DNA of 37,250 nt from an uncultured Thermomicrobiaceae bacterium (GCA_938082375.1 CALKCJ010000057.1:1-37250); one strand, 5' to 3'; positions 19,858 to 36,705 are shown, counted from the first letter of the stretch. The notes: generated from the sequence alone by a model not told the origin. Numbers and translations: made by a program.

Positions 19858-20712
19858 ATGAGTCAAACAGCTGTCACCACCTCACGCTACTACATCGACG
19901 CCGTCGGGCGTGCCGTCCAGCTCTTGCGCGCCTTTCTCACGCCTCCGCACCAGTTCGGCGTCACCGAATTGAGTCAGATCACTGGCCTCAGCAAGAACCA
20001 GGCGTTCCGGCTCCTGCGGACATTGACCGCTGAGGGGCTGCTCACCTGGGATCCGGAGACGAAGACCTACACACTTAGCTACGCGCTGACCGAGCTCGGT
20101 GCGGTCGCCTCGCGCGGTTCCTCGTTGGTCCAGGCGGCCGCGCCGGTGCTCGATCGGCTGGCACAGGAGACCGGCGAGACGGTCAACCTGATCGCCCGCG
20201 CCGACGAGTTCACAGCGATCTGCATCGACAAGCGCGACAGTGCCCGGCTGCTGCAGATCACGGCCAAGATCGGCGCCCGCTTCCAGCTCCACGCCGGGGC
20301 CGTGCCCAAGCTGCTGCTCGCCTTCTCAGCTCCGGAGAGCGTTGAGCGCTACCTGACCCATCGCCAGCCGCTCCAGCGATTCACTCCACGGACGATCACC
20401 GAGCCTGACACACTGCGAGGGGAGCTCGCAGCGATCCGCGAGCGCGGTTATTCCATTAGCGACGAGGACCTGGATCTCGGCGCCTGCGCCATCGCCGCGC
20501 CGATCTTCGACCGTCACGGCGTGGTGATCGCCGGCGTGAGCATTGCCATGCCGACCTCGCGGTTCGGTGCGGCCGAGCACGCGCGGTACCGCGAGGCCGT
20601 GATAGGGGCCGCCGCGGAGATCTCCCGCCGGCTCGGGCACCGTCTCGCTACGCTGAACGGTGCAGCCTCGGCAATGCAGCCGCGGAACATCTCGAGAAAG
20701 CACGATCGCTAG
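19858..20712 (+). CDS. IclR family transcriptional regulator
   Basis: The 284-residue protein has an N-terminal winged helix-turn-helix (about residues 13-75) with VGRAVQLLRAFL, VTELSQITGLSKNQAFRLLR and a TAEGLLTWDPETKTYTLSY wing. The IclR effector-binding domain (about 85-262) has QETGETVNLIARADEFTAIC, the HAGAVPKLLLAF helix, RERGYSISDEDLDLGACAIA and a final APIFDRHGVVIAGVSIAMP segment. IclR proteins usually control the adjacent catabolic operon in response to a small metabolite. Here the substrate-binding protein gene starts 47 bases downstream on the same strand, so the regulator probably controls and is co-transcribed with the cluster. Confidence 0.93.
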   Translation: MSQTAVTTSRYYIDAVGRAVQLLRAFLTPPHQFGVTELSQITGLSKNQAFRLLRTLTAEGLLTWDPETKTYTLSYALTELGAVASRGSSLVQAAAPVLDRLAQETGETVNLIARADEFTAICIDKRDSARLLQITAKIGARFQLHAGAVPKLLLAFSAPESVERYLTHRQPLQRFTPRTITEPDTLRGELAAIRERGYSISDEDLDLGACAIAAPIFDRHGVVIAGVSIAMPTSRFGAAEHARYREAVIGAAAEISRRLGHRLATLNGAASAMQPRNISRKHDR

Positions 20713-20759
20713 GCGGTTTGTTTGGCTGTTTGATCTTCAGGGGAGGAGGGACGATCTCC

Positions 20760-22526
20760 ATGAGCCAATCGATCGACCACGTACTCCGGCAGCTCCGCGA
20801 GGCCGGGATCCATGTCTCGCGCCGCGAGCTGCTGCGGCTGGCTATGTTCAGCAGCGCGGCACTCGTCTCCGGCGCTACCTTCGCAGCCTGCGGTGGTCAA
20901 GAGGGCGGCACGGCCGGCGGAGCGACGCCGCCGGGCGGCAGCACCGGTGCCCAGGCGAGCCCGACCGCGCCACCGGCGGCGACACCAGGCCAGCACGCTG
21001 TTAGCACCCCGACGGCAGCCGCCGCCCAGCCCCGCAAGGGTGGTGTCTGGCGCATGGCACTCCACGCCAACCCGACGGCCTACCCGATCACGCTTCCCGG
21101 CGCGCTGGCCGATATCCTGGTGAACAAGACGATCTACAACTGCCTGACGCAGTACCAGCTCAAGGACGGCGCTATCGAGGTGGTGCCCGACCTGTCCGAG
21201 TCCTGGGAAGCGAACGACGACCTGACCGAGTACACCTTCCGACTCAAGCAGGGCGTGACCTGGCACGACGGCCAGCCGTTTACTGCCGACGACGTAAAGT
21301 TCACCTTCGAGGCGATCCTCAATCCGAACGTGAACGCCGCACTCCGCGGGCCGGTATCGTCGATCGACCGCGTCGAGGTCGTGGACGAGCACACTGTGCG
21401 CTTCATCCTCAAGCGGCCGTTCGCGCCTCTCCCGGTGATGTTGGGCTACAACCAGGCCATCGTCCCCAAGCACCTGCTGGAGGGGCAGGACCTGAATCAG
21501 CCGACCGAGTTTCTCAAGAACCCGATCGGCACCGGGCCGTTCAAGTTCAAGGAGTTCGTCCAGGGCAGCCACCTCGAGGCGGTTGCCAACCCCGACTTCT
21601 TCGACGGCGCGCCGTACCTCGACGGGATCGTGTTCAAGGTCATCCCCGACGGCAATGCCCGCGTCGCCCAAGCCAAGGCCGGCGAGATCGACTTCACCGT
21701 CATCGAGCCACCACAGGTCGATGCGCTTAAGGGCGCGGACAACGTCGAGATCCGCGAGGCGCCACAGGTCAACTACTATTTCTTCGCCGTCAACCACACT
21801 GTGCCACGACTCCAGGACGTGCGCGTGCGTCGGGCGCTCTCTCACGCGATCGACAAGCAGGCGATCGTCGACCGGATCTTGCGCGGCTACGGCCAGGTCG
21901 CGACCGGGCCGATCAACCCGCTACTGGGCGACTATTACAACCCCAACGTCACCACCTACGAGTACGACATGGACAAAGCAGCCGCACTCCTCAAGGAGGC
22001 TGGATGGACGAAGGGGCCGGACGGTGTCCTCGTCAATGCGAGCGGCGAGCGCTTCACCATCCTCTTCAACGGCCCTAAGGGCTTCCCGGTGATGGAGCAG
22101 GTCATCACCTACGCCCAGCAGCAGTACCAGAAGCTCGGCATCGAGGTGACGCTCGACATCGTCGACTGGCCGGTTCACCTGGAGAAGTACCGGAATCTCG
22201 AGTACGACCTGCTGATGGAGTGGTGGATCACCCCGCCGGATCCCGACCTCTACGACCACTACTTCAGCGAGTCGGCGCAGAACCGTTGGGCGTACAAGAA
22301 CCCGCAGCTCGACGAACTGCTCGTCCAGGCGCGGAGCGAGGCGGATCGGGCCAAGCGCGTGCAGCTCTACCACCAGATCCAGAAGCTGATCGCCGAGGAT
22401 CTACCGGTGATTTACCTGTACTACCCGCGGGAGCTGCAAGCGGTGAGTAAGCGGACGAAGGGTCTGCCTTTGATCGGCTACCGCGACGCGCTGACCTGGA
22501 TGGAGAAGGTCTGGCTCGAAGAGTAG
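20760..22526 (+). CDS. Peptide/nickel-type ABC transporter substrate-binding lipoprotein
   Basis: A 588-residue family 5 extracellular solute-binding protein. The N-terminus has a twin-arginine motif (SRRELLRLAMF, Arg21-Arg22), a short hydrophobic stretch and a lipobox-like FAAC with Cys44, so it is probably exported folded through Tat and lipidated. A Gly/Thr/Pro-rich linker (about 45-92) precedes the binding domain, which has the signature YTFRLKQGVTWHDGQPFTAD followed by DVKFTFEAI, the NPIGTGPFKF motif and the VRRALSHAIDKQAIVD segment. The ligand is probably an oligopeptide or similar. The ATG at 20760 follows GGGGAGGAGGG. A hairpin separates it from the permease genes. Confidence 0.94.
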   Translation: MSQSIDHVLRQLREAGIHVSRRELLRLAMFSSAALVSGATFAACGGQEGGTAGGATPPGGSTGAQASPTAPPAATPGQHAVSTPTAAAAQPRKGGVWRMALHANPTAYPITLPGALADILVNKTIYNCLTQYQLKDGAIEVVPDLSESWEANDDLTEYTFRLKQGVTWHDGQPFTADDVKFTFEAILNPNVNAALRGPVSSIDRVEVVDEHTVRFILKRPFAPLPVMLGYNQAIVPKHLLEGQDLNQPTEFLKNPIGTGPFKFKEFVQGSHLEAVANPDFFDGAPYLDGIVFKVIPDGNARVAQAKAGEIDFTVIEPPQVDALKGADNVEIREAPQVNYYFFAVNHTVPRLQDVRVRRALSHAIDKQAIVDRILRGYGQVATGPINPLLGDYYNPNVTTYEYDMDKAAALLKEAGWTKGPDGVLVNASGERFTILFNGPKGFPVMEQVITYAQQQYQKLGIEVTLDIVDWPVHLEKYRNLEYDLLMEWWITPPDPDLYDHYFSESAQNRWAYKNPQLDELLVQARSEADRAKRVQLYHQIQKLIAEDLPVIYLYYPRELQAVSKRTKGLPLIGYRDALTWMEKVWLEE

Positions 22527-22700: not shown

Positions 22701-23648
22701 ATGGCCGCGTACGTCGTGCGCCGGCTGCTCCAGGCAGGGGTGCTGCTTTTCATCGTCAGCGTGCTCACGTTCCTGCTGATCCACTCGGCACCGGGCGGGC
22801 CGGCACTGCTGGCGAACCCAGACTTGAGTCGAGAGCAGATCCAGCAGATGACCGCGCAGCTCGGGTTGGACGACCCCTTGCCCGTGCAGTACGCCCGCTG
22901 GCTGCGCAACGTGCTGCGCGGCGACTTCGGCAACAGCTATAACACGGTGCAGCCAGTCACCCGGCTGATCGCCGAGCGGCTGCCGAACACGATCATGCTG
23001 ACCGGTCTGGCGCTGGTGCTTTCGATCGCGATCGCGGTGCCGCTCGGCGTCCTCAGCGCCCTCAAGCGCAACTCGGCGCTCGACCGGCTCATTGCTGGCT
23101 TCAGCTTCATCGGCGTCTCGATCCCGGTCTTCTGGCTCGGCATCATGCTGATTATCGTCTTCGCTGTGCAGCTCAAGCTGCTCCCGGCCGGCGGGATGTA
23201 CACGCTGGGTACTGAGTTCTCGCTCGTCGACCGCCTGGAGCATCTCCTCCTCCCGACGCTGGTGCTGGTCGTCGCCAACCTGGCCGAGCTGACGCGCTAT
23301 ACCCGCTCCGGGATGATCAACGTGCTGAGCGAGGACTACATCCGCACAGCGCGGGCCAAGGGGTTACCGAACCGCGTGGTGCTGATCCGGCACGCGCTGC
23401 GCAACGCGCTCATCCCGGTGATCACGATCATCGGCGTGCTACTACCACGCGCCGTCAGCGGCGCGGCGATCACTGAAACCGTCTTCTCCTGGCCGGGGAT
23501 GGGCCGGCTGGCGGTCGAGGCGGCGATGACCCGTGACTATCCCGTCGTGCTGGGCGCGACCCTCACCGTGGCCTTGGTCGTCGTCCTAAGCAGCCTCGTG
23601 ACCGACCTCCTCTACGCATACATCGACCCGCGCATCCGGCTGGGCTAG
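22701..23648 (+). CDS. Peptide ABC transporter permease, DppB type
   Basis: A 315-residue inner-membrane permease. The N-terminus AAYVVRRLLQAGVLLFIVSV, then LTFLLIHSAPGGPA, is the standard DppB/OppB start, followed by DPLPVQYARWLRNVLRGDFG. The six-helix binding-protein-dependent transport domain runs from about residue 95, with GFSFIGVSIPVFWLGIMLII and the cytoplasmic EAA-type loop YIRTARAKGLPNRVVLIRHA, which contacts the ATPase. An AAGGGG ribosome-binding site precedes the ATG. It should pair with the permease encoded immediately downstream. Confidence 0.95.
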   Translation: MAAYVVRRLLQAGVLLFIVSVLTFLLIHSAPGGPALLANPDLSREQIQQMTAQLGLDDPLPVQYARWLRNVLRGDFGNSYNTVQPVTRLIAERLPNTIMLTGLALVLSIAIAVPLGVLSALKRNSALDRLIAGFSFIGVSIPVFWLGIMLIIVFAVQLKLLPAGGMYTLGTEFSLVDRLEHLLLPTLVLVVANLAELTRYTRSGMINVLSEDYIRTARAKGLPNRVVLIRHALRNALIPVITIIGVLLPRAVSGAAITETVFSWPGMGRLAVEAAMTRDYPVVLGATLTVALVVVLSSLVTDLLYAYIDPRIRLG

Positions 23649-23661
23649 AGAGCGTGCACCG

Positions 23662-24564
23662 ATGACCGGCACATCGATCAGCAGCTATCTCGAACAAGCG
23701 CAGGCGCGGCCTCGTCGCTCCTGGTGGGCACTGGCGCGACGGCGCTTCCTGCGTAACCGCGTCGCTGTCCTCGCAGCACTCTATCTGATCGCAATGTACC
23801 TGGTGGCCCTGCTCGCCCCGGTCATCGCACCCTACCACCCCAACGAGGGCGATATCCTCTCCATCCATACGCGCCCCTCCCGCGAGCACCTCCTCGGCAC
23901 CGATGAGAACGGCCGTGACGTGCTCTCCCGGTTGATCTTCGGCGCCCGCATCTCGATGAGCGTCGGCCTGATCGCGATGGTGATCTCGATCGCGATTGGC
24001 TCGCTGATCGGCGGCGTGAGCGGCTATGTCGGCCGGGCGGTAGACAGCGTGCTGATGCGCATCACCGACGGCATGATGGCCATCCCCTACTTCTTCCTCG
24101 TCCTAATCGTGGTGGCCGTCTTCGGCTCAAGCTTCCGCAACATCGTACTGGTCATCGGCGTGACGAGCTGGATGGTGGTGGCACGTATCGTCCGCAGCGA
24201 GGTGCTGCGCACCCGCGAGCTCGACTTCGTGCTGGCCGCCCGCGCGCTGGGCGCCTCGAGCACGCGCATCCTGCTGCGCCACATCTTGCCCCACGCCGTG
24301 CCCTCGATCATCGTCGCGGCGACGCTGGGCGTGGCCAACGCGATCCTGCTCGAATCGGCGCTGAGCTATCTCGGGCTCGGCATCCAGCCGCCGCAGGCAA
24401 GCTGGGGCAATATGCTTAGTAACTCCCAGGCCTACCTCTGGGAGAACCCCCTGTTGCCGCTCTACCCTGGCCTGCTCATCCTGCTCACCGTGCTCGCCTA
24501 CAACTTCCTCGGCGACGCGCTGCGCGACGCCCTCGACCCCCAGTACCGGGAGGGACAGCTATGA
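23662..24564 (+). CDS. Peptide ABC transporter permease, DppC type
   Basis: A 300-residue permease with the typical DppC/OppC layout. An N-terminal cytoplasmic segment (RRSWWALARRRFLRNRVAVL) leads into the first membrane helix, a short periplasmic loop contains PSREHLLGTDENGRDVLSRL, and five more helices follow. The EAA loop is ELDFVLAARALGASSTRILL followed by RHILPHA, and the family end is PGLLILLTVLAYNFLGDALR, then DALDPQYR. It lies 13 bases after the first permease. The next gene starts within its stop codon. No gene for the DppD/DppF-type ATPases follows, so these must be supplied from elsewhere. Confidence 0.95.
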   Translation: MTGTSISSYLEQAQARPRRSWWALARRRFLRNRVAVLAALYLIAMYLVALLAPVIAPYHPNEGDILSIHTRPSREHLLGTDENGRDVLSRLIFGARISMSVGLIAMVISIAIGSLIGGVSGYVGRAVDSVLMRITDGMMAIPYFFLVLIVVAVFGSSFRNIVLVIGVTSWMVVARIVRSEVLRTRELDFVLAARALGASSTRILLRHILPHAVPSIIVAATLGVANAILLESALSYLGLGIQPPQASWGNMLSNSQAYLWENPLLPLYPGLLILLTVLAYNFLGDALRDALDPQYREGQL

Positions 24565-25619
24565 CATCTCCTGCCCTGCCGACCATCGGGCTGGCTGGCG
24601 ACCTGATGCTGCGGCGGCCGTTGCCAGACGATGCCTTCGCCCGGCGACCAGGACTGGCGGCGGCTCGTGAGGTGATCCGTGCCTGCGACCTGATGATCGC
24701 CAACCTGGAGATGCCACTATCGCGCCGGGGCTACCGGGTGCCCAAGCACTCCAACCTGCGCTCCGACCCCGAGGTCATCTGGAGCGTGCGCCAGCTCGGC
24801 GTTCACACGGTCACACTCGCCAACAACCACATGATGGACTACGGCCCCCAGGCGATGCTCGACACGCTGGCCGTCTGTGACGAGGCGGGGATCGCCCGCT
24901 GCGGAGCCGGAGCCGACCTGGATGCTGCCCTCGAGCCCGCCTGGCTGACGTGCCAGGGCACGAAGATCGCCCTGCTCAGCGTCGCCAGCACCCTGCCGGT
25001 CGAATCCGACGCTGGCCCCGGTAAGCCGGGGATCGCGCCGCTACGGGTCCGCTTCTCCTTCGAGGTCGATACCAACCTGCTGACCGAGCAACCTGGCACG
25101 GTGCCCCCGGTGCGGAGCTGGCCGGAGGCGGCCGATCTCGAGCGAGCTTGCGAGCAGGTGCGTCTCGCCCGGCGCGAGGCCGATCTCGTGATCGCCGGCA
25201 TCCACTGGGGCGTGCCCCCGCACTGGCTGTCTCCCTACCTCGGCCTGCTAGCCGAGTACCAGCGGCCGGTAGCGCATGCTCTGATCGAGGCCGGCGCCGA
25301 CGTGATTGCCGGCCACCACTCGCACTGCCTGCACCCGATCGAGTGGTACCGAGGCAAGCCGATCTTCTACAGCCTGGGCAACTTCCTGTTCGAGGGCCCG
25401 CCAGCGTTCATGGAGCCGGAGTCGGTACTCGTGCGGCTGAGGCCGGGTGCCCCACCGGTCGTCGAGCTGGTGCCGCTGCTGCTAGACGACGACGGCTTCC
25501 CGGCCGTGGCGCGCGGCCCGGAAGCCACGCGGGGCATCGAGAAGCTGCGGGCGAGGTCGGCCGGCTACGGCTGCGCGATCGAGGAGCGCGGCGGAGGCTG
25601 GCTAGCCTGTCCGGCGTAA
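24561..25619 (+). CDS. CapA-family metallophosphatase-like protein
   Basis: The 352-residue protein belongs to the CapA family (named for poly-gamma-glutamate synthesis), which has a calcineurin-like metallophosphatase fold. Metal-site motifs are visible in order: GDLML near residue 13, ANLEMPLS, TLANNHMMDYGP, GIHWG and AGHHSHCLHPIEWY, followed by IFYSLGNFLFEGP. No signal peptide or membrane anchor is seen, unlike many CapA proteins, so it is probably cytoplasmic. Its ATG overlaps the permease stop (ATGA), which ties it to peptide uptake. A role in hydrolysing a gamma-glutamyl or phosphorylated substrate is speculation. Confidence 0.88.
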   Translation: MTSPALPTIGLAGDLMLRRPLPDDAFARRPGLAAAREVIRACDLMIANLEMPLSRRGYRVPKHSNLRSDPEVIWSVRQLGVHTVTLANNHMMDYGPQAMLDTLAVCDEAGIARCGAGADLDAALEPAWLTCQGTKIALLSVASTLPVESDAGPGKPGIAPLRVRFSFEVDTNLLTEQPGTVPPVRSWPEAADLERACEQVRLARREADLVIAGIHWGVPPHWLSPYLGLLAEYQRPVAHALIEAGADVIAGHHSHCLHPIEWYRGKPIFYSLGNFLFEGPPAFMEPESVLVRLRPGAPPVVELVPLLLDDDGFPAVARGPEATRGIEKLRARSAGYGCAIEERGGGWLACPA

Positions 25620-25707: not shown

Positions 25708-27489
25708 ATGACCTCGACAAGGCCGTTCGTGACCTGGAGCGATCCCGCGCTGGAGCGCGAGCTGCTGTCGCACGTGTCGCTCGATGTACCCTGGAGCGTC
25801 GTCGAGCAGTTCTCCCAGCTCACTCGGCTCTCCGGTTCCCCCGAGGAGCATAGGGCCATCGAGATCCTCATCGAGCACCTGCGCTCCTGGGGCGTGCCGC
25901 ACACCCTCTACGAGCCGGTCTGCTTCATCTCCATCCCGCTCGGGGCCACCCTGCGTAGCCTGGAGCCGGGCGGCAAAGCTTACCGGGCCAAGACCGTCTC
26001 GATGTCGGCCTCCACCGGTGGCGAGGAGATCACCGGCGAGCTGGTCTACGTGCCGGGCACCGGCGGGACACAGTCAGGCGATGTGTTCTCCGCCGGGGTG
26101 GACCTCGGCGGGCGGGAGGTGCGCGGCAAGGTCGTCCTGACCGAGGGGATGGCTTCGCCGGGCAAGGTCAACGACGTGATGAACGCTGGTGCGCTGGCCG
26201 GCATCTTCATCAACCCGGGTACCTACATCCACGAGGGGATCTGCACCACCATCTGGGGTACGCCCGATCTCGACAGCATGAAGCGCCAGCCCAGCATCCC
26301 GGTCGTGGCAGTCAACAGCCCCGACGGCCAAGAACTGGTCGCGCTGGCGAAGCGCGGCGGGCGGGTGGCCCTCTCCACCCGGCTCGATACCGGCTGGCGG
26401 CCGATCCCGGTGCTGGTGGCCGAGATCCCTGGCCAGTCGATCCCCGAGGAGTTCGTGCTCCTCCACGGCCACCTCGACTCCTGGCACGTCGGCGTCGGCG
26501 ACAACGCGACCGGCGATGCCACCATGCTGGAACTCGCCCGTGTCTTCTGGCAGCACCGCGACCGGCTGGCCCGCTCGCTGCGGATCGCCTGGTGGTCGGG
26601 CCACTCGCACGGGCGCTATGCCGGTTCCACCTGGTATGCCGATACCTTCGGCCTCGAGCTGGCCCGCACCTGCGTGGCGCAGGTGAACTGCGACTCGCCC
26701 GGCTGCCGCTGGGCCGATACCTACACCGAGCTCACGGCGATGAGCGAGACCGAGCCGTTCGTGGACGCGGTCATCCGCGAGACGACTGGGATCACGCCCG
26801 AGCCGGAGCGGCCGCCGCGCGCTGGCGACTACTCGTTCAACCAGATCGGCATCACCAGCTTCTATATGCTCAGCTCGACCATGTCGGAAGCGGCCCGGCG
26901 TGAGCGCGGATACTACCCGGTCGGCGGGTGCGGTGCCAACATCCAGTGGCACACCGAGGACGACACGCTGGAGATCGCCGATCGCGACAACCTGCTGCGC
27001 GATATGCGCATGTACGCCGCTTCGCTGCTGCGCGCGCTCAACGCGCCCATCCACCCCTTCGACTGGACGCGTACCACTCGGGAGTTCCGCCAGACCCTCG
27101 AGCGCTACCAAGCGGCTACCGGCGACGCGTTCAACTTCTCCCCTGCTTTCGAGGCCGTGGACGCGCTGGAGCGGGCACTGGAGCGGCTGTACAGTGCGGT
27201 CCCAGCATGCACTCCTGACAGCCCGGAGGCGCGCCGCATCAACGCGGTGCAGCGCCGCCTAGCGCGTATTCTGGTACCGGTCAACTACAGCCGGATGGCC
27301 CCCTTCTGGCACGACCCGGCGCTGAACGTGCCGCCGTTGCCGGATCTCGCGCCAGCGCTGGCGATGCCGGGCGCGAAGGACGACCAGCACCGGCGGGGCA
27401 TCCTGGTGGCGCACCTGACCCGCGGGCAGAACCGGCTGCTCTGGGCGCTGGAGCAGGCACGCGAGCTGGTGGAGACGGCGCTTGGCTGA
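25708..27489 (+). CDS. M28-family peptidase-like protein with altered active site (copy 1)
   Basis: The 593-residue protein (ATG at 25708, strong GGAGAGGGAGGG ribosome-binding site) has an N-terminal helical part, a PA-type insert (about residues 105-235) and an M28 zinc-peptidase core (about 238-440). Expected metal ligands are visible: His255 and Asp257 (HGHLDSW), Asp265 (GDNATGDA), Asp329 (NCDSPG) and His415 (WHTEDDT). The catalytic Glu-Glu pair is replaced by His299-Ser300 in WSGHSHGRYAGSTWYAD. A C-terminal helical domain follows (about 450-590). No signal peptide is present, so it is probably cytoplasmic. It is a paralogue of the gene at 28307. Substrate and activity are unknown. Confidence 0.88.
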   Translation: MTSTRPFVTWSDPALERELLSHVSLDVPWSVVEQFSQLTRLSGSPEEHRAIEILIEHLRSWGVPHTLYEPVCFISIPLGATLRSLEPGGKAYRAKTVSMSASTGGEEITGELVYVPGTGGTQSGDVFSAGVDLGGREVRGKVVLTEGMASPGKVNDVMNAGALAGIFINPGTYIHEGICTTIWGTPDLDSMKRQPSIPVVAVNSPDGQELVALAKRGGRVALSTRLDTGWRPIPVLVAEIPGQSIPEEFVLLHGHLDSWHVGVGDNATGDATMLELARVFWQHRDRLARSLRIAWWSGHSHGRYAGSTWYADTFGLELARTCVAQVNCDSPGCRWADTYTELTAMSETEPFVDAVIRETTGITPEPERPPRAGDYSFNQIGITSFYMLSSTMSEAARRERGYYPVGGCGANIQWHTEDDTLEIADRDNLLRDMRMYAASLLRALNAPIHPFDWTRTTREFRQTLERYQAATGDAFNFSPAFEAVDALERALERLYSAVPACTPDSPEARRINAVQRRLARILVPVNYSRMAPFWHDPALNVPPLPDLAPALAMPGAKDDQHRRGILVAHLTRGQNRLLWALEQARELVETALG

Positions 27490-27585
27490 GGTACCCCACC
27501 ATCGCCCGCGTGAAGGGGGCGCCCGATCGGCCCAGATCGGATAGAGTGTGGCCTGGCGGCGACGGTGACCCGAGAGGAGAGGGCG

Positions 27586-28287
27586 ATGACGACGATCGGA
27601 TTCGCTACCATAGCCGAAGCGCCGCGTGACGACGTGATCCCTGCCATCCGCGCGCTCCTGCCACCCAACGTCCAGATCGTCGAGCGGGGAAACCTGAACG
27701 GGCTCAGGCGCGAGGAGATCGCGGCGCTGGCCCCCGATCCCGGTGAGGTCGGCATCGTGGCGCGGCTGCGCGAAGGCGGCGAGACGCTGCTCTCGCACCG
27801 CAAGATCCTGCCCCGCATGCAGCGGCTGGTCGACGAGCTGGTGCGCGATGAGGGAGCCGACCTGGTGGTGATCCTCTGCGGCGCGGACTGGAGCGCGCTC
27901 GAGTCGCCGGTGCCGCTGGTGAATCCGGGCCGGCTCTTTCCGGCGGTCATCGCGTCGCTGGCCTACGGGCGGAAGCTCGGTGTCATCAAGCCCTCGCCCG
28001 GGCAGGTGGCGAACGAGGTGGAACGCTACCGCGCGCTGGGGATCGAGGCGGTAGTCACGAGCGCCTCGCCCTATACCGGCGAGGAGCGGATGGCGCTGGC
28101 CCGCCAGGCGGCCGAGCAGCTGCGCGACGCCGGCTGCGAGCTCATCTGGATGACCTGTATCGGCATGGACGAGGCGATGCGCGAAGTGGTCGCCGAGCTG
28201 ACCGAAAAGCCGGTCGTCCTGGCGCGCTCGCTGCTGGGGCGGATCGTGGCCGAGCTAGTCGCCGCCCGGCAGCCAGCCCGGGTGTGA
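27586..28287 (+). CDS. AroM-like protein (Asp/Glu racemase-like fold predicted)
   Basis: The 233-residue protein resembles AroM, a family of unknown function named from the Escherichia coli aroL operon. Visible matches are the start TTIGFATIAEAPRDDVIPAI, the RGNLNGLRREEIAALAPDPG segment, and VARLREGGETLLSHRKILPR. Two cysteines in conserved-looking loops, Cys98 (VVILCGADW) and Cys191 (WMTCIGMD), are spaced like the catalytic pair of aspartate/glutamate racemases; that comparison is my inference. The ATG at 27586 follows GAGAGGAGAGGG. It lies between two M28-like genes, which suggests a role in processing the same substrate, for example a D-amino acid or cyclic peptide part. Confidence 0.82.
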   Translation: MTTIGFATIAEAPRDDVIPAIRALLPPNVQIVERGNLNGLRREEIAALAPDPGEVGIVARLREGGETLLSHRKILPRMQRLVDELVRDEGADLVVILCGADWSALESPVPLVNPGRLFPAVIASLAYGRKLGVIKPSPGQVANEVERYRALGIEAVVTSASPYTGEERMALARQAAEQLRDAGCELIWMTCIGMDEAMREVVAELTEKPVVLARSLLGRIVAELVAARQPARV

Positions 28288-28306
28288 GGGCGAGGGGAGG
28301 GAAGTC

Positions 28307-30082
28307 ATGAGCCAGGTTGCCACGGACATCGAGCGCCGGCTGCGGGAGGCGGTCTCCGCCGAGCGACTGCAGCGACACCTCGAGCGCTTCAGCACCCTCT
28401 TCCGGGACAGCGGAAGCGAAGACGAGCGTCGGGCAGCCGAGTACGTGGCCGAGCAGGTGAGCGCAGCCGGAGCGAAGGTGAGGATCTTCACCTTCGACTC
28501 GCTCATCTCCTGGCCGCTCGAGGCGACGCTGGTCGTCACCTATCCGGACGGGCACAGCGAGGAGATCCCAGCCCGCCCGCGCTCGTTCGGCGGGGTGACG
28601 CCGCCAGAGGGGATTGAGGCGGAGCTGGTCTCCATCCCGTTCCAGAAGCCCAGTCAGGGCGAGATGATTTTCACCCACCGGGCGGTGGCCGGCGACTACG
28701 AGGGTCGCGACGTGCGCGGCAAGATCGTCCTCACCGCCGACGGCGGCCCAGATGGGATCCGCCGGGCCGAGGAGTGCGGCGCGCTGGCCCACGTGCACAT
28801 CTGGCCCTCAGACGAGCCTGCCATCCACGAGATGATCGCGACGCCGGTCTGGGGCACGCCGACGCCCGAGACTGCCCCGAGCATCCCGAAGATCCCGGCC
28901 CTCGGCGTCACCAACGCCGAGGGCGAGCGGCTAGCCCAGGCCTGCGCTGCCGGGCCGGTGCGTGCCCGGCTGACCTCGAAGGTCCGCACCGAGTGGATGC
29001 GGCTGCCACTGGTGGTCGCCGATATCCCCGGCCGCGACCCCGAGGGAGCCTTCCTGCTCGTCGGCGCACACATCGACTCGTGGTACGAGGGGATCACCGA
29101 CAACGCTACCGGCGATGCCAGCTTGATCGAGATGGCCTGCATCCTGGCGCAGCACCCGGGAGCGCTGCACTACGGCGTGCGCTTCGCCTGGTGGCCGGGC
29201 CACTCCACGGGCCGCTACTCCGGCTCGACCTGGTACGCGGATACGCACTTCATGGAGCTGCGCGAGCGCTGCCTGGGCTACCTCAACATCGATTCGCCCG
29301 GCATCCGCGGGGCTTCCGTCTGGGACTGCCGCTACAACACCGCCGAAGTGGAGCATATTACGGCTGCCGTCGTAAGGGAGCTGTCCGGGCAAGAGCCGAA
29401 CCTGCGCCGCCCGCTCAAGGCCGGCGACCAGTCGTTCCTCGGCGTGGGGCTGCCCTCGCTGGGAGCCTTCCGCATGCTTCCGCCCGACCATCCAGACCGC
29501 AAGGCCGTCGGCGGCTCCGGCGGCGGCTGGTGGTGGCACACGCCCCACGACACGCTGGACAAGGCCGATGCCGAGGTCCTGGCCGATGACACCCGCGTCT
29601 ACCTGACTCTGGTGGCCCGGATGTGTTTGCCACCGCTACACCCGTACCGGTACGTGCCGGTCGCCGGTGACTTCTTGCGCCACCTCGGTGATCTGCAGGA
29701 GGCCGCGGGCACGCACCTCGATCTTGCACCCACCCTGGAGCGCGCGCGGCAGTTTCAAGCGGTCGCCGAGCGGCTCGATACAGCGGCTCAGCAGGTTGCC
29801 AGTGACGGTGAACAGATCCTCGCGTTTAACCGCAGCATGCGCGAGCTGTCGCGGCTGCTCAACCCGGTCCTCTTCACGATTCGGGGGCCCTACGAGTTCG
29901 ACCCAGCGCTGCAGCTCCCGGTTCTGCCAGGGTTAGCACCCATGCGACGGCTGGCGACGCTCGCCGCGGCCAGCGACGAGTATCGCTTCTTGTGGACGCA
30001 GCTGGTTCGCCAGCGCAACCGGATCGAGGATGCATTGCGCCGAGCGACCGCGCTCGCAGACGATCTTGCCAGCATCCTCTAG
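28307..30082 (+). CDS. M28-family peptidase-like protein with altered active site (copy 2)
   Basis: The 591-residue protein has the same architecture as the product encoded at 25708, and the active-site residues even have the same numbers: His255 and Asp257 (GAHIDSW), Asp265 (TDNATGDA), Asp329 (NIDSPG) and a later His in WWWHTPHDTLDK. Again the expected Glu-Glu is His299-Ser300 (WPGHSTGRYSGSTWYAD). The PA-like insert is at about residues 100-230 and a helical C-terminal domain ends the protein. No signal peptide is seen. A GGGGAGGGAAG ribosome-binding site precedes the ATG, 19 bases after the AroM-like gene. It ends the cluster and a palindrome follows its stop codon. Confidence 0.88.
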   Translation: MSQVATDIERRLREAVSAERLQRHLERFSTLFRDSGSEDERRAAEYVAEQVSAAGAKVRIFTFDSLISWPLEATLVVTYPDGHSEEIPARPRSFGGVTPPEGIEAELVSIPFQKPSQGEMIFTHRAVAGDYEGRDVRGKIVLTADGGPDGIRRAEECGALAHVHIWPSDEPAIHEMIATPVWGTPTPETAPSIPKIPALGVTNAEGERLAQACAAGPVRARLTSKVRTEWMRLPLVVADIPGRDPEGAFLLVGAHIDSWYEGITDNATGDASLIEMACILAQHPGALHYGVRFAWWPGHSTGRYSGSTWYADTHFMELRERCLGYLNIDSPGIRGASVWDCRYNTAEVEHITAAVVRELSGQEPNLRRPLKAGDQSFLGVGLPSLGAFRMLPPDHPDRKAVGGSGGGWWWHTPHDTLDKADAEVLADDTRVYLTLVARMCLPPLHPYRYVPVAGDFLRHLGDLQEAAGTHLDLAPTLERARQFQAVAERLDTAAQQVASDGEQILAFNRSMRELSRLLNPVLFTIRGPYEFDPALQLPVLPGLAPMRRLATLAAASDEYRFLWTQLVRQRNRIEDALRRATALADDLASIL

Positions 30083-34595: not shown

Positions 34596-36257
34596 TCAGA
34601 GCAGGCGGCGCTGGGCGAGCTCGGCGAACTCGTAGTCGCGCCAGACGGGGATGCCGCAATAGCGCTCCCCCTCCGGGCAGGCCGGGCGCCTACCGGCCTC
34701 ACTGCGCAGGACGCAGGGCGGCCTGGCGACGTAGTGGCCGATCCCCGGCAGCACGCGCGCGACCTGCTCGGTCTCCTGCCGCGCGGTCTCGAAGATCTCC
34801 CGCTGGGCGTTGTAACAGAGCCGCTTCACCCACTTCCAGAAGTAGGTGAGGAGCGTCCCCGACTCGTAGAAGCGGACGCGGTGGCTGTTGGGCAGCAGAT
34901 AGAGCACCTGCTCCGCTGGCACGCCCGCGTCCAGCAGCCGGTTCTTGGCGTCCCAGAGCGCCTGGATGGTCGCCAGGTACTCGTCGAGCGCCGCTGGCAC
35001 CCGGGCGATGTCGGCCGGAATGATCACGTCCGGCTCCTGCCGGAGATGGGCGGTCAAGACCGGTCCGGAGGAGATCGTGCCGCGATGGCGCTGGTTCTGG
35101 GCGTCCTCGGCGCCGCTGATCCGCTTCTGGAAGGTGAAGGGAACGTGGGCCATCGTCTGCATCAGCTTGGAGTGCATGGCCAGGAAGAGGGGATGGCCCA
35201 GGTAGCGGTTGCGGGCCGGGTCGAGCACCACGGCGATGGCCTCGCGGTCGGGCAGCTCCTCGCGGGTGCGGCCGAGCACGGCCCGCGCCGCATCGGCCAG
35301 CAGCCGCTCTGAGTCGGGGTTGTAGCTGACCAGCTTCGAATCGTAGCCCTCGAGCGCCTCGTCGAATTCGCGGAAGAAGGCCTCGCTGGCCGGCCGCTGC
35401 AGGGTCTCCCGGAACTGGGCGAGCACCTGGTATTCGAGCGTGTCCTCCGCGGCCAGCACCTGGAGGTCGAGCCGGTGCCCGGGCGCGCCGAGGAAGTACG
35501 GGTCGACCTTCAGTACCTCCTCGACCATCCGGTTGACCAGGTAGCGAACCTCGGCCGGCGCGTCGAGCTGGTTAGCCAGGACGTAGTAGCGCAGCAGCGT
35601 CAACCCGTTGATGGTGTGGTAGAGGTGCGCTGGCGTGGCCAGCGGGAGCACGTAGCGGGCCACCTCCTGGGCCCGCCGCTGCACGGCCGTGCGCAGCTTC
35701 TGGGCAGCCTCGGGGCTGCGCGCCCGGGCTCGCGCCGGGAAGACCTGCGCGTAGCGGGCGGCGATGTCCGGGATCAGCAGCTCGGTCAGGCGGCGGTAGC
35801 CGGCCAGGGCCCGCTCGATGGCATTCCGGTAGGCCTCGAGCAGCGGCTCCGGCAGCTCGGGCGTGACCATCGTCTTGCCGGAGACCTCGCGGTAGCGCTG
35901 CGACACCTGCTCCGAGTTGTAAAAGGGGTGGTGGTGGAAGAACGACCAGATCGCCAGGCGCGAGATGCCGTCGAGCACGAAGACGAAGTTGGCGTGCTGG
36001 AAGGTAGTGTGGTGGCCGGCCTCGAAGAGGTCGGCGTAGAGACGGAGAGCGCGACGAAGGCGCACCGGTCGGCTCTCGTCCCCCAGCTCGTCCCCCGACG
36101 CGTCGAGCAGTTCAAGCACATTCTCGACCCTGGCCGGCCGGGACCCGTAGCACGACCAGGCGGCCGCGATGGTGAGCGCAAATGGGTGGGAGGCCGACTC
36201 TGTGGTCAGGAGCCGGACTCTTGGCGGCTCGGAACGGAAGGGGTACGCGCTCTCCAT
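34596..36257 (-). CDS. Tandem-domain FAD-dependent thymidylate synthase (ThyX) family protein
   Basis: ThyX makes dTMP from dUMP using FAD and methylenetetrahydrofolate. This 553-residue protein is about twice the usual size and appears to hold two ThyX-like halves. The first (about residues 10-255) has HHHPFYNSEQVSQRY at 108-122 in place of the RHR..S.N..S.RY motif. The second (about 300-510) has QRHRGTIS at 389-396, LYLLPNSHRVRFYESGTLLT, and WVKRLCYNAQREIFETARQ. A C-terminal Cys cluster (Cys515, Cys527, Cys534) resembles a metal site. The ATG at 36257 follows GGAGGATC. Whether it makes dTMP is uncertain because each half has an incomplete motif. Confidence 0.87.
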   Translation of the reverse strand: MESAYPFRSEPPRVRLLTTESASHPFALTIAAAWSCYGSRPARVENVLELLDASGDELGDESRPVRLRRALRLYADLFEAGHHTTFQHANFVFVLDGISRLAIWSFFHHHPFYNSEQVSQRYREVSGKTMVTPELPEPLLEAYRNAIERALAGYRRLTELLIPDIAARYAQVFPARARARSPEAAQKLRTAVQRRAQEVARYVLPLATPAHLYHTINGLTLLRYYVLANQLDAPAEVRYLVNRMVEEVLKVDPYFLGAPGHRLDLQVLAAEDTLEYQVLAQFRETLQRPASEAFFREFDEALEGYDSKLVSYNPDSERLLADAARAVLGRTREELPDREAIAVVLDPARNRYLGHPLFLAMHSKLMQTMAHVPFTFQKRISGAEDAQNQRHRGTISSGPVLTAHLRQEPDVIIPADIARVPAALDEYLATIQALWDAKNRLLDAGVPAEQVLYLLPNSHRVRFYESGTLLTYFWKWVKRLCYNAQREIFETARQETEQVARVLPGIGHYVARPPCVLRSEAGRRPACPEGERYCGIPVWRDYEFAELAQRRLL

Positions 36258-36705
36258 AACGATCCTCCGCGCTCGTGACGCCGGTAGCCTGCTACCCGCG
36301 GTAGCCGCACCGCGCGGGCTCAAGTATGGCAGAGGTGTACGTACAGATACAAGGGCCGGAGATACTGCGTCACGCGATCCAGCGCTCGATCCCCGTTGTC
36401 GAACTGTTTGCGACGAAGGTACTCCCTGTACGTCATGCTGTCTCGCGACACCCAGCGTTCGACTCGACCTCCGGCGCGACACCCCCTTGACGCGGCCTTA
36501 TCGACTCCGCGGCCGCGACAAGCATACGCCTAAGCCCCATCAGTGCCGTTGCCTTTGGGCGCCGAGCGCCACATCCATCTCCGGCGCGATCGATCTGTGG
36601 CGGCCACGAGAGACGGCCCCGCCACCCACGAACCAAGGGCAAACCGCCCTGGCTTGCCGACATGGGATTGTCGAGGCGATGGGCAGGAACAACCTTGCCC
36701 TCTCC
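36258..36705. other. Intergenic region upstream of the ThyX-family gene
   Basis: No convincing gene is seen in this 448-base stretch; frames crossing it have no ribosome-binding site and resemble no family. A weak minus-strand promoter for the ThyX-family gene may lie at 36323-36352: TTGTAT, 18 bases, CATACT. Confidence 0.5.

Follow-up and report, generated by a model that had tools for sequence, protein, structure and literature searches.

Two paralogous M28B-like proteins with His-Ser in place of the catalytic Glu-Glu pair in an uncultured Thermomicrobiaceae bacterium

Glutamate carboxypeptidases II and III (GCPII and GCPIII) and NAALADase-like proteins belong to peptidase subfamily M28B, for which human GCPII (FOLH1/PSMA) serves as the reference here. 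In GCPII, Zn2 is held by His377 and Asp453 and Zn1 by Glu425 and His553, while Asp387 and a hydroxide bridge both zincs and Glu424 acts as the catalytic residue (PMC8538779). This Glu-Glu pair counts as the hallmark of M28 metallopeptidases and is the usual test of their activity. Here, we describe two neighbouring genes encoding proteins A and B in a stretch of 37,250 nucleotides (hereafter, the window) from an uncultured Thermomicrobiaceae bacterium (GCA_938082375.1 CALKCJ010000057.1:1-37250). Both proteins are M28B-like and carry His299-Ser300 in place of the Glu-Glu pair. They represent a large, uncharacterised family that occurs in bacteria and archaea and whose members are annotated in databases merely as 'M28 family peptidase'. 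No description of an M28 family with His for the catalytic Glu, or of one tied to AroM or hydantoin racemase, turned up in the open-access library that was searched.

His-Ser at the position of the catalytic pair

A and B are paralogues with 36% identity over 585 residues. Both matched Pfam Peptidase_M28 (PF04389) with E-values of 1e-15 and 8e-17 (58 and 62 bits, respectively; cut-off 21.3), and a PA domain was matched in both besides. Their NCBIfam and Pfam names were generic only (LapA scored 23 bits, its cut-off being 600). At the position of the catalytic Glu-Glu of M28 peptidases, A and B share the motif GHSxGRYxGSTWYAD. Hidden Markov model (HMM) alignment to a solved structure placed His299-Ser300 exactly opposite the Glu-Glu of keratinase KP1 (WWGAEEAGL), and the same method placed them exactly opposite that of GCPII/GCPIII (SWDAEEFGL). 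The remaining metal-ligand and HxD positions H255, D257, D265, D329, and H415 (H411 in B) were retained. In the alignment, His377, Asp387, Asp453, and His553 of GCPII correspond to H255, D265, D329, and H415 of A, and the HxD motif is common to both, whereas Glu424 and Glu425 correspond to H299 and S300; the same ligand correspondence emerged when a bacterial M28B protein with Glu-Glu was aligned. The residue preceding the last His also differs, being Trp414 in A and Tyr552 in GCPII. The original prediction that His299-Ser300 replaces Glu-Glu in both paralogues, with the other ligands kept, thus agrees with the open reading frames (ORFs) and with the alignments to KP1, GCPII, and GCPIII. Of the residues that define an active M28 peptidase, A and B have the His, the bridging Asp, the later Asp, and the final His, and lack the Glu-Glu pair. 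Their profile matches and predicted fold make them M28/M28B homologues, whereas their catalytic pair places them outside the definition of active M28 peptidases.

The replacement in A and B alone is weak evidence because the two are paralogues; its invariance across the family is strong evidence. In a one-genome-per-species scan, 303 relatives were detected; the 80 best matches (78 loci) were used, and the family was located in Chloroflexota, Bacillota, Alphaproteobacteria, and Armatimonadota. A plasmid search added Deinococcus (Deinococcota), haloarchaea, and one Burkholderia plasmid, and more members were added from about 1000 further genomes of three phyla. Family members scored above 300 bits and canonical M28 proteins below about 135 bits, and all 74 members scanned matched the Peptidase_M28 profile.

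Conservation was counted over the 141 members that have sequence at the site. All of them have His at position 299, and H255, D329, D374, and H415 are likewise invariant. Position 300 was Ser in 135, Glu in five (L095, L107, L108, L173, and L174), and Thr in one; D265 was kept in 140. W183-G-x-P, Y304, W309, and D312 are specific to the family, and E347 is largely so. Among 84 diverse members, 17 of the 593 columns were invariant, and five of these 17 are the four kept ligands and H299 (p ~1e-8). This conservation is far beyond chance and supports a selected His-Ser site. That a large family has the same replacement fixed suggests a metal-enzyme active site that is altered and not dead. As the original prediction proposed, an alignment was built around the motif. 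The 50 Glu-Glu-type relatives have Glu at the same columns (position 299 in 47 and position 300 in 48), and the HMM alignments to KP1 and GCPII agree; because these relatives align at positions 299 and 300, a simple register shift of Glu-Glu was rejected.

Two deviations concern other positions of the site. D257 of the HxD motif is replaced by Cys in ten members (e.g., L016, L051, and L095). The Bacillota His-Glu protein L173 (L173:474-2225), the one exception at D265, has Cys in place of this bridging Asp and a reported in-frame TAG; it is possibly a decaying copy or has a recoded stop.

A maximum-likelihood tree was built without the motif columns by a quick search with support from the Shimodaira-Hasegawa-like approximate likelihood ratio test (SH-aLRT); some of its branches are long and its details unsure. 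The family formed one clade (SH-aLRT 100), in which a four-member His-Glu clade (98) was sister to the His-Ser clade (98), and the His-Glu member L095 was nested beside a His-Ser protein. Taking Glu-Glu as the outside state, the most parsimonious history suggests a passage from Glu-Glu through His-Glu to His-Ser, with one return from Ser to Glu. This refines the original prediction: the replacement is identical in A and B, but across the family it splits into two steps, His being universal and the second residue Glu in a minority. In two Chloroflexota genomes, His-Ser and His-Glu paralogues adjoin (L107:5211-8826, which also has an AroM gene, and L108:1-3490), so that the two versions of the active site are in use together.

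Predicted architecture and known relatives

AlphaFold2 models of A and B, made from an input alignment excluding rows from plasmid records, had mean pLDDT (predicted local distance difference test) values of 94.2 and 93.5, respectively, and a predicted template modelling score of 0.93. Residues 13-593 of the A model matched GCPII and the transferrin receptor with Z of 36-37.5 and a root-mean-square deviation (rmsd) of 2.5-3.1 over 530-541 residues (Foldseek E ~1e-32). The B model matched transferrin receptor 1 and GCPII end to end (Z 32-36); it ties with M28 aminopeptidases of Bacillus relatives, which cover only about 390 residues. Overall, both models gave Z of 32-37 and rmsd of 2.5-3.4 over about 540 residues, covering GCPII 55-750 and transferrin receptor 1 121-755 end to end. 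On these models, A and B have the complete M28B layout of protease domain, apical (PA) domain, and helical dimerisation domain, i.e., the predicted full-length architecture of GCPII/III. Since the matches are full-length, the C-terminal 150 residues correspond to the M28B dimerisation domain, and the family HMM matched the C-terminal domain of 4twe (i-E 5e-6). A and B are probably dimeric. Pfam TFR_dimer (PF04253) nevertheless misses this domain: among 74 members the best E was 0.12, and none came near the cut-off. A search of 251 genomes of the bacterium's own phylum also gave zero matches, but it gave none in the control genomes either and so carries no weight.

M28B proteins of the GCPII kind are expected to have a type II membrane anchor or secretion signal, whereas by inspection, with no predictor run, the N-termini MTSTRPFVTWSDPALEREL (A) and MSQVATDIERRLREAV (B) have no hydrophobic stretch; from this, A and B look cytoplasmic. 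The bacterial Glu-Glu M28B protein L189, from a Pseudomonadota genome, aligned with the family along 499 columns (hhalign probability 99.1) and grouped with it in the tree (SH-aLRT 92, long branch). L189 differs from the His-Ser family in its Glu-Glu pair, its N-terminal hydrophobic stretch, and the larger size of its apical and C-terminal parts; a place in Gemmatirosa (L190) is 50% identical. The family motif W183-G-x-P aligned with the apical AGDPLTPG stretch of L189, and the corresponding part of the GCPII apical domain lines the substrate pocket. Transferrin receptor 1 has the same full-length fold and is also without a Glu-Glu active site. Loss of the metal ligands marks the transferrin receptor type of non-enzymatic M28 homologue, whereas the His-Ser family almost always keeps H255, D265, D329, and H415. 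The full-length architecture, the wide family, and the operon context described below extend beyond the original prediction.

Gene neighbourhood

The genes for A and B lie in a cluster on the plus strand in the order IclR, SBP_bac_5, DppB, DppC, PGA_cap, A, AroM, and B (Table 1). A purine-rich GGAGAGGGAGGG site precedes the ATG of A. A gene for the importer ATPase is absent from the window cluster. The PGA_cap protein shows distant similarity to MslH, a Trp epimerase of lasso peptides (120 bits, cut-off 700), and it is possibly a second stereochemistry enzyme beside AroM.

Table 1 Coordinates of the cluster genes and of the residues discussed.
Feature	Position	Strand	Remark
IclR-family regulator	19858..20712	+	first gene of co-directional cluster
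SBP_bac_5 solute-binding protein	20718..22526	+	start codon uncertain
DppB/OppB-type permease	22701..23648	+	
DppC/OppC-type permease	23662..24564	+	
PGA_cap (CapA-like) protein	24561..25619	+	
Protein A, His-Ser M28B-like, 593 aa	25708..27489	+	intact ORF; ATG at 25708
W183-G184-T185-P186 of A	26254..26265	+	family-invariant apical (PA) domain motif
H255-L-D257-S-W259 of A	26470..26484	+	metal-2 His ligand and HxD motif
D265 of A	26500..26502	+	bridging Asp (GCPII Asp387)
GHSHGRYAGSTWYAD of A, residues 298-312	26599..26643	+	His299-Ser300 replace Glu-Glu (GCPII Glu424-Glu425)
D329 of A	26692..26694	+	metal-2 ligand (GCPII Asp453)
E347 of A	26746..26748	+	invariant Glu; candidate compensating acid or substrate contact
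H415 of A	26950..26952	+	metal-1 ligand (GCPII His553)
C-terminal helical domain of A, ~445-593	27040..27486	+	predicted counterpart of transferrin receptor/GCPII dimerisation domain (model, HMM)
AroM-family protein (Asp/Glu racemase superfamily)	27586..28287	+	between A and B; probable start ATG 27586 behind GAGGAGAGGG
Protein B, second His-Ser M28B-like protein, 591 aa	28307..30082	+	intact ORF
GHSTGRYSGSTWYAD of B, residues 298-312	29198..29242	+	
H411 of B	29537..29539	+	metal-1 ligand

Neighbourhood annotations were scanned at 124 loci, many of them short. The recurring neighbours were oligopeptide-type ATP-binding cassette (ABC) importers, IclR regulators, members of the Asp/Glu/hydantoin racemase family, M20 and PGA_cap proteins, and HyuA/HyuB, and M19 genes were also among them. 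By HMM count, a racemase or AroM gene was present in 30 of the 78 related loci (~1.03 Mb). Family genes are often paired, at least two being present in 20 of the 78. The bacterium's own genome has four racemase-superfamily genes in 3.36 Mb, two of which are no more than 8 kb from a family gene. As in gene clusters of the hydantoin-utilisation type, Asp/Glu/hydantoin racemase, HyuA/HyuB, and M20 genes are found beside family members, but at most family loci, including the window, a hydantoinase is absent and ABC importers prevail. The genome has a third His-Ser gene (L121:2200-11247), whose neighbours encode an Asp/Glu/hydantoin racemase, an SDR, a PFK-domain protein, and an ABC importer of the carbohydrate type; the importer in the window is, unlike this one, of the oligopeptide type. 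Elsewhere in the window (34596-36482, minus strand), a 628-aa protein contains two Thy1 (ThyX) stretches; its length is about triple that of the Pfam Thy1 model.

Proposed function and alternative explanations

We propose, with a probability of roughly 0.5, that A and B are metal-dependent amide (peptide-like) hydrolases acting on an imported compound, with His299 as the proton shuttle and a weakened or remodelled Zn1 site. The adjacent ABC importer would bring in an amide-like substrate. The protein would bind at least metal 2 via H255, D265, and D329, and His299, in place of Glu424, would deprotonate the metal-bound water. The metal-1 site keeps D265 and H415; Ser300 provides no carboxylate like that of Glu425, and metal 1 may be weakly bound, absent, completed by water, or held by His299 itself. 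The AroM/racemase partner may adjust the stereochemistry of the substrate, which, given the racemase and hydantoinase neighbours, could have unusual stereochemistry or be a cyclic amide. A shuttle other than a carboxylate is chemically tolerable because Vmax of the GCPII mutant E424Q falls only 8-fold (PMC8538779). The His-Glu members, which keep the metal-1 carboxylate with His already present, fit His as the new base. More tentatively, the new catalysis may have arisen in two steps within a widespread prokaryotic branch of the GCPII/transferrin receptor lineage, first the His base and then loss of the metal-1 carboxylate, leaving a mononuclear or asymmetric His-assisted metallohydrolase that works with a racemase on imported non-standard amides and whose paralogue pairs, present in some operons, may form heterodimers.

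Several points weigh against the proposed hydrolase function. As the transferrin receptor demonstrates, a protein of this fold can evolve into one that only binds. Related Alphaproteobacteria dominate the neighbourhood counts; many of the 30 racemase loci come from them, have the same arrangement, and are not independent. Importer types vary among oligopeptide, carbohydrate (as at L121), and polar amino acid, so that the context leaves the substrate class unfixed. Finally, the equivalent of Glu425, the ligand lost here, is treated as essential in studies of GCPII orthologues (PMC10794815).

A and B could instead be pseudo-enzymes, i.e., metal- or ligand-binding sensors or carriers with the GCPII/transferrin receptor fold that have lost hydrolysis, like the transferrin receptor in logic. 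Both catalytic carboxylates are missing, as this explanation would have it, and the best structural matches include the transferrin receptor; however, the other metal ligands are nearly invariant across bacteria and archaea, alongside family-specific residues, and the operons look catabolic, with racemases and hydrolases. Retention of all other ligands, as read from the alignments, favours an enzyme over a binding protein, and we regard a pseudo-enzyme as unlikely.

Somewhat less probable still is a conventional dinuclear M28-type hydrolase with both roles taken by other groups, e.g., with His299 binding metal 1 and E347 or D312 acting as base. E347 is present in 141 of 141 members, compared with 10 of the 50 Glu-Glu relatives, and D312 in 139 of 141; in the A model, E347 lies at a helix start beyond the strand following D329. 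On the other side, the His-Glu members also have His299, so that His is not needed as a ligand there, and E347 appears from the alignment to fall outside the GCPII Zn shell.

We also doubt that the family carries out a different chemistry, such as a non-hydrolytic amide rearrangement, a cyclisation comparable to that of the M28-fold glutaminyl cyclases, or an epimerisation, with His299 as acid/base. Proton transfer would suit a His base with no second carboxylate, and racemase-superfamily and CapA/MslH-like genes are neighbours, but the positive support comes only from this context, and glutaminyl cyclases retain their Glu residues.

Decay or a sequencing artefact, to which only the in-frame stop of the distant L173 lends anything and for which A and B offer nothing, was rejected on the 141/141 conservation, the dN/dS of about 0.1, and the intact ORFs in many genomes. 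In comparisons with relatives of 93-95% identity, the ratio of nonsynonymous to synonymous substitution rates (dN/dS; Nei-Gojobori method, own script) was 0.09-0.10 for A and 0.11 for B; for A compared with L013, which is more distant, it was 0.27. A and B are under purifying selection, and the earlier view of a selected, not decaying, site is borne out by this and by the invariance over bacteria and archaea.

If the family is active, exchange of the proton shuttle and of one metal ligand is compatible with catalysis in the GCPII fold, and each step has a living intermediate. An inactive family would instead be the transferrin receptor's counterpart in prokaryotes, and a large one. The family is also a source of soluble bacterial, including thermophilic, relatives of the drug target PSMA.

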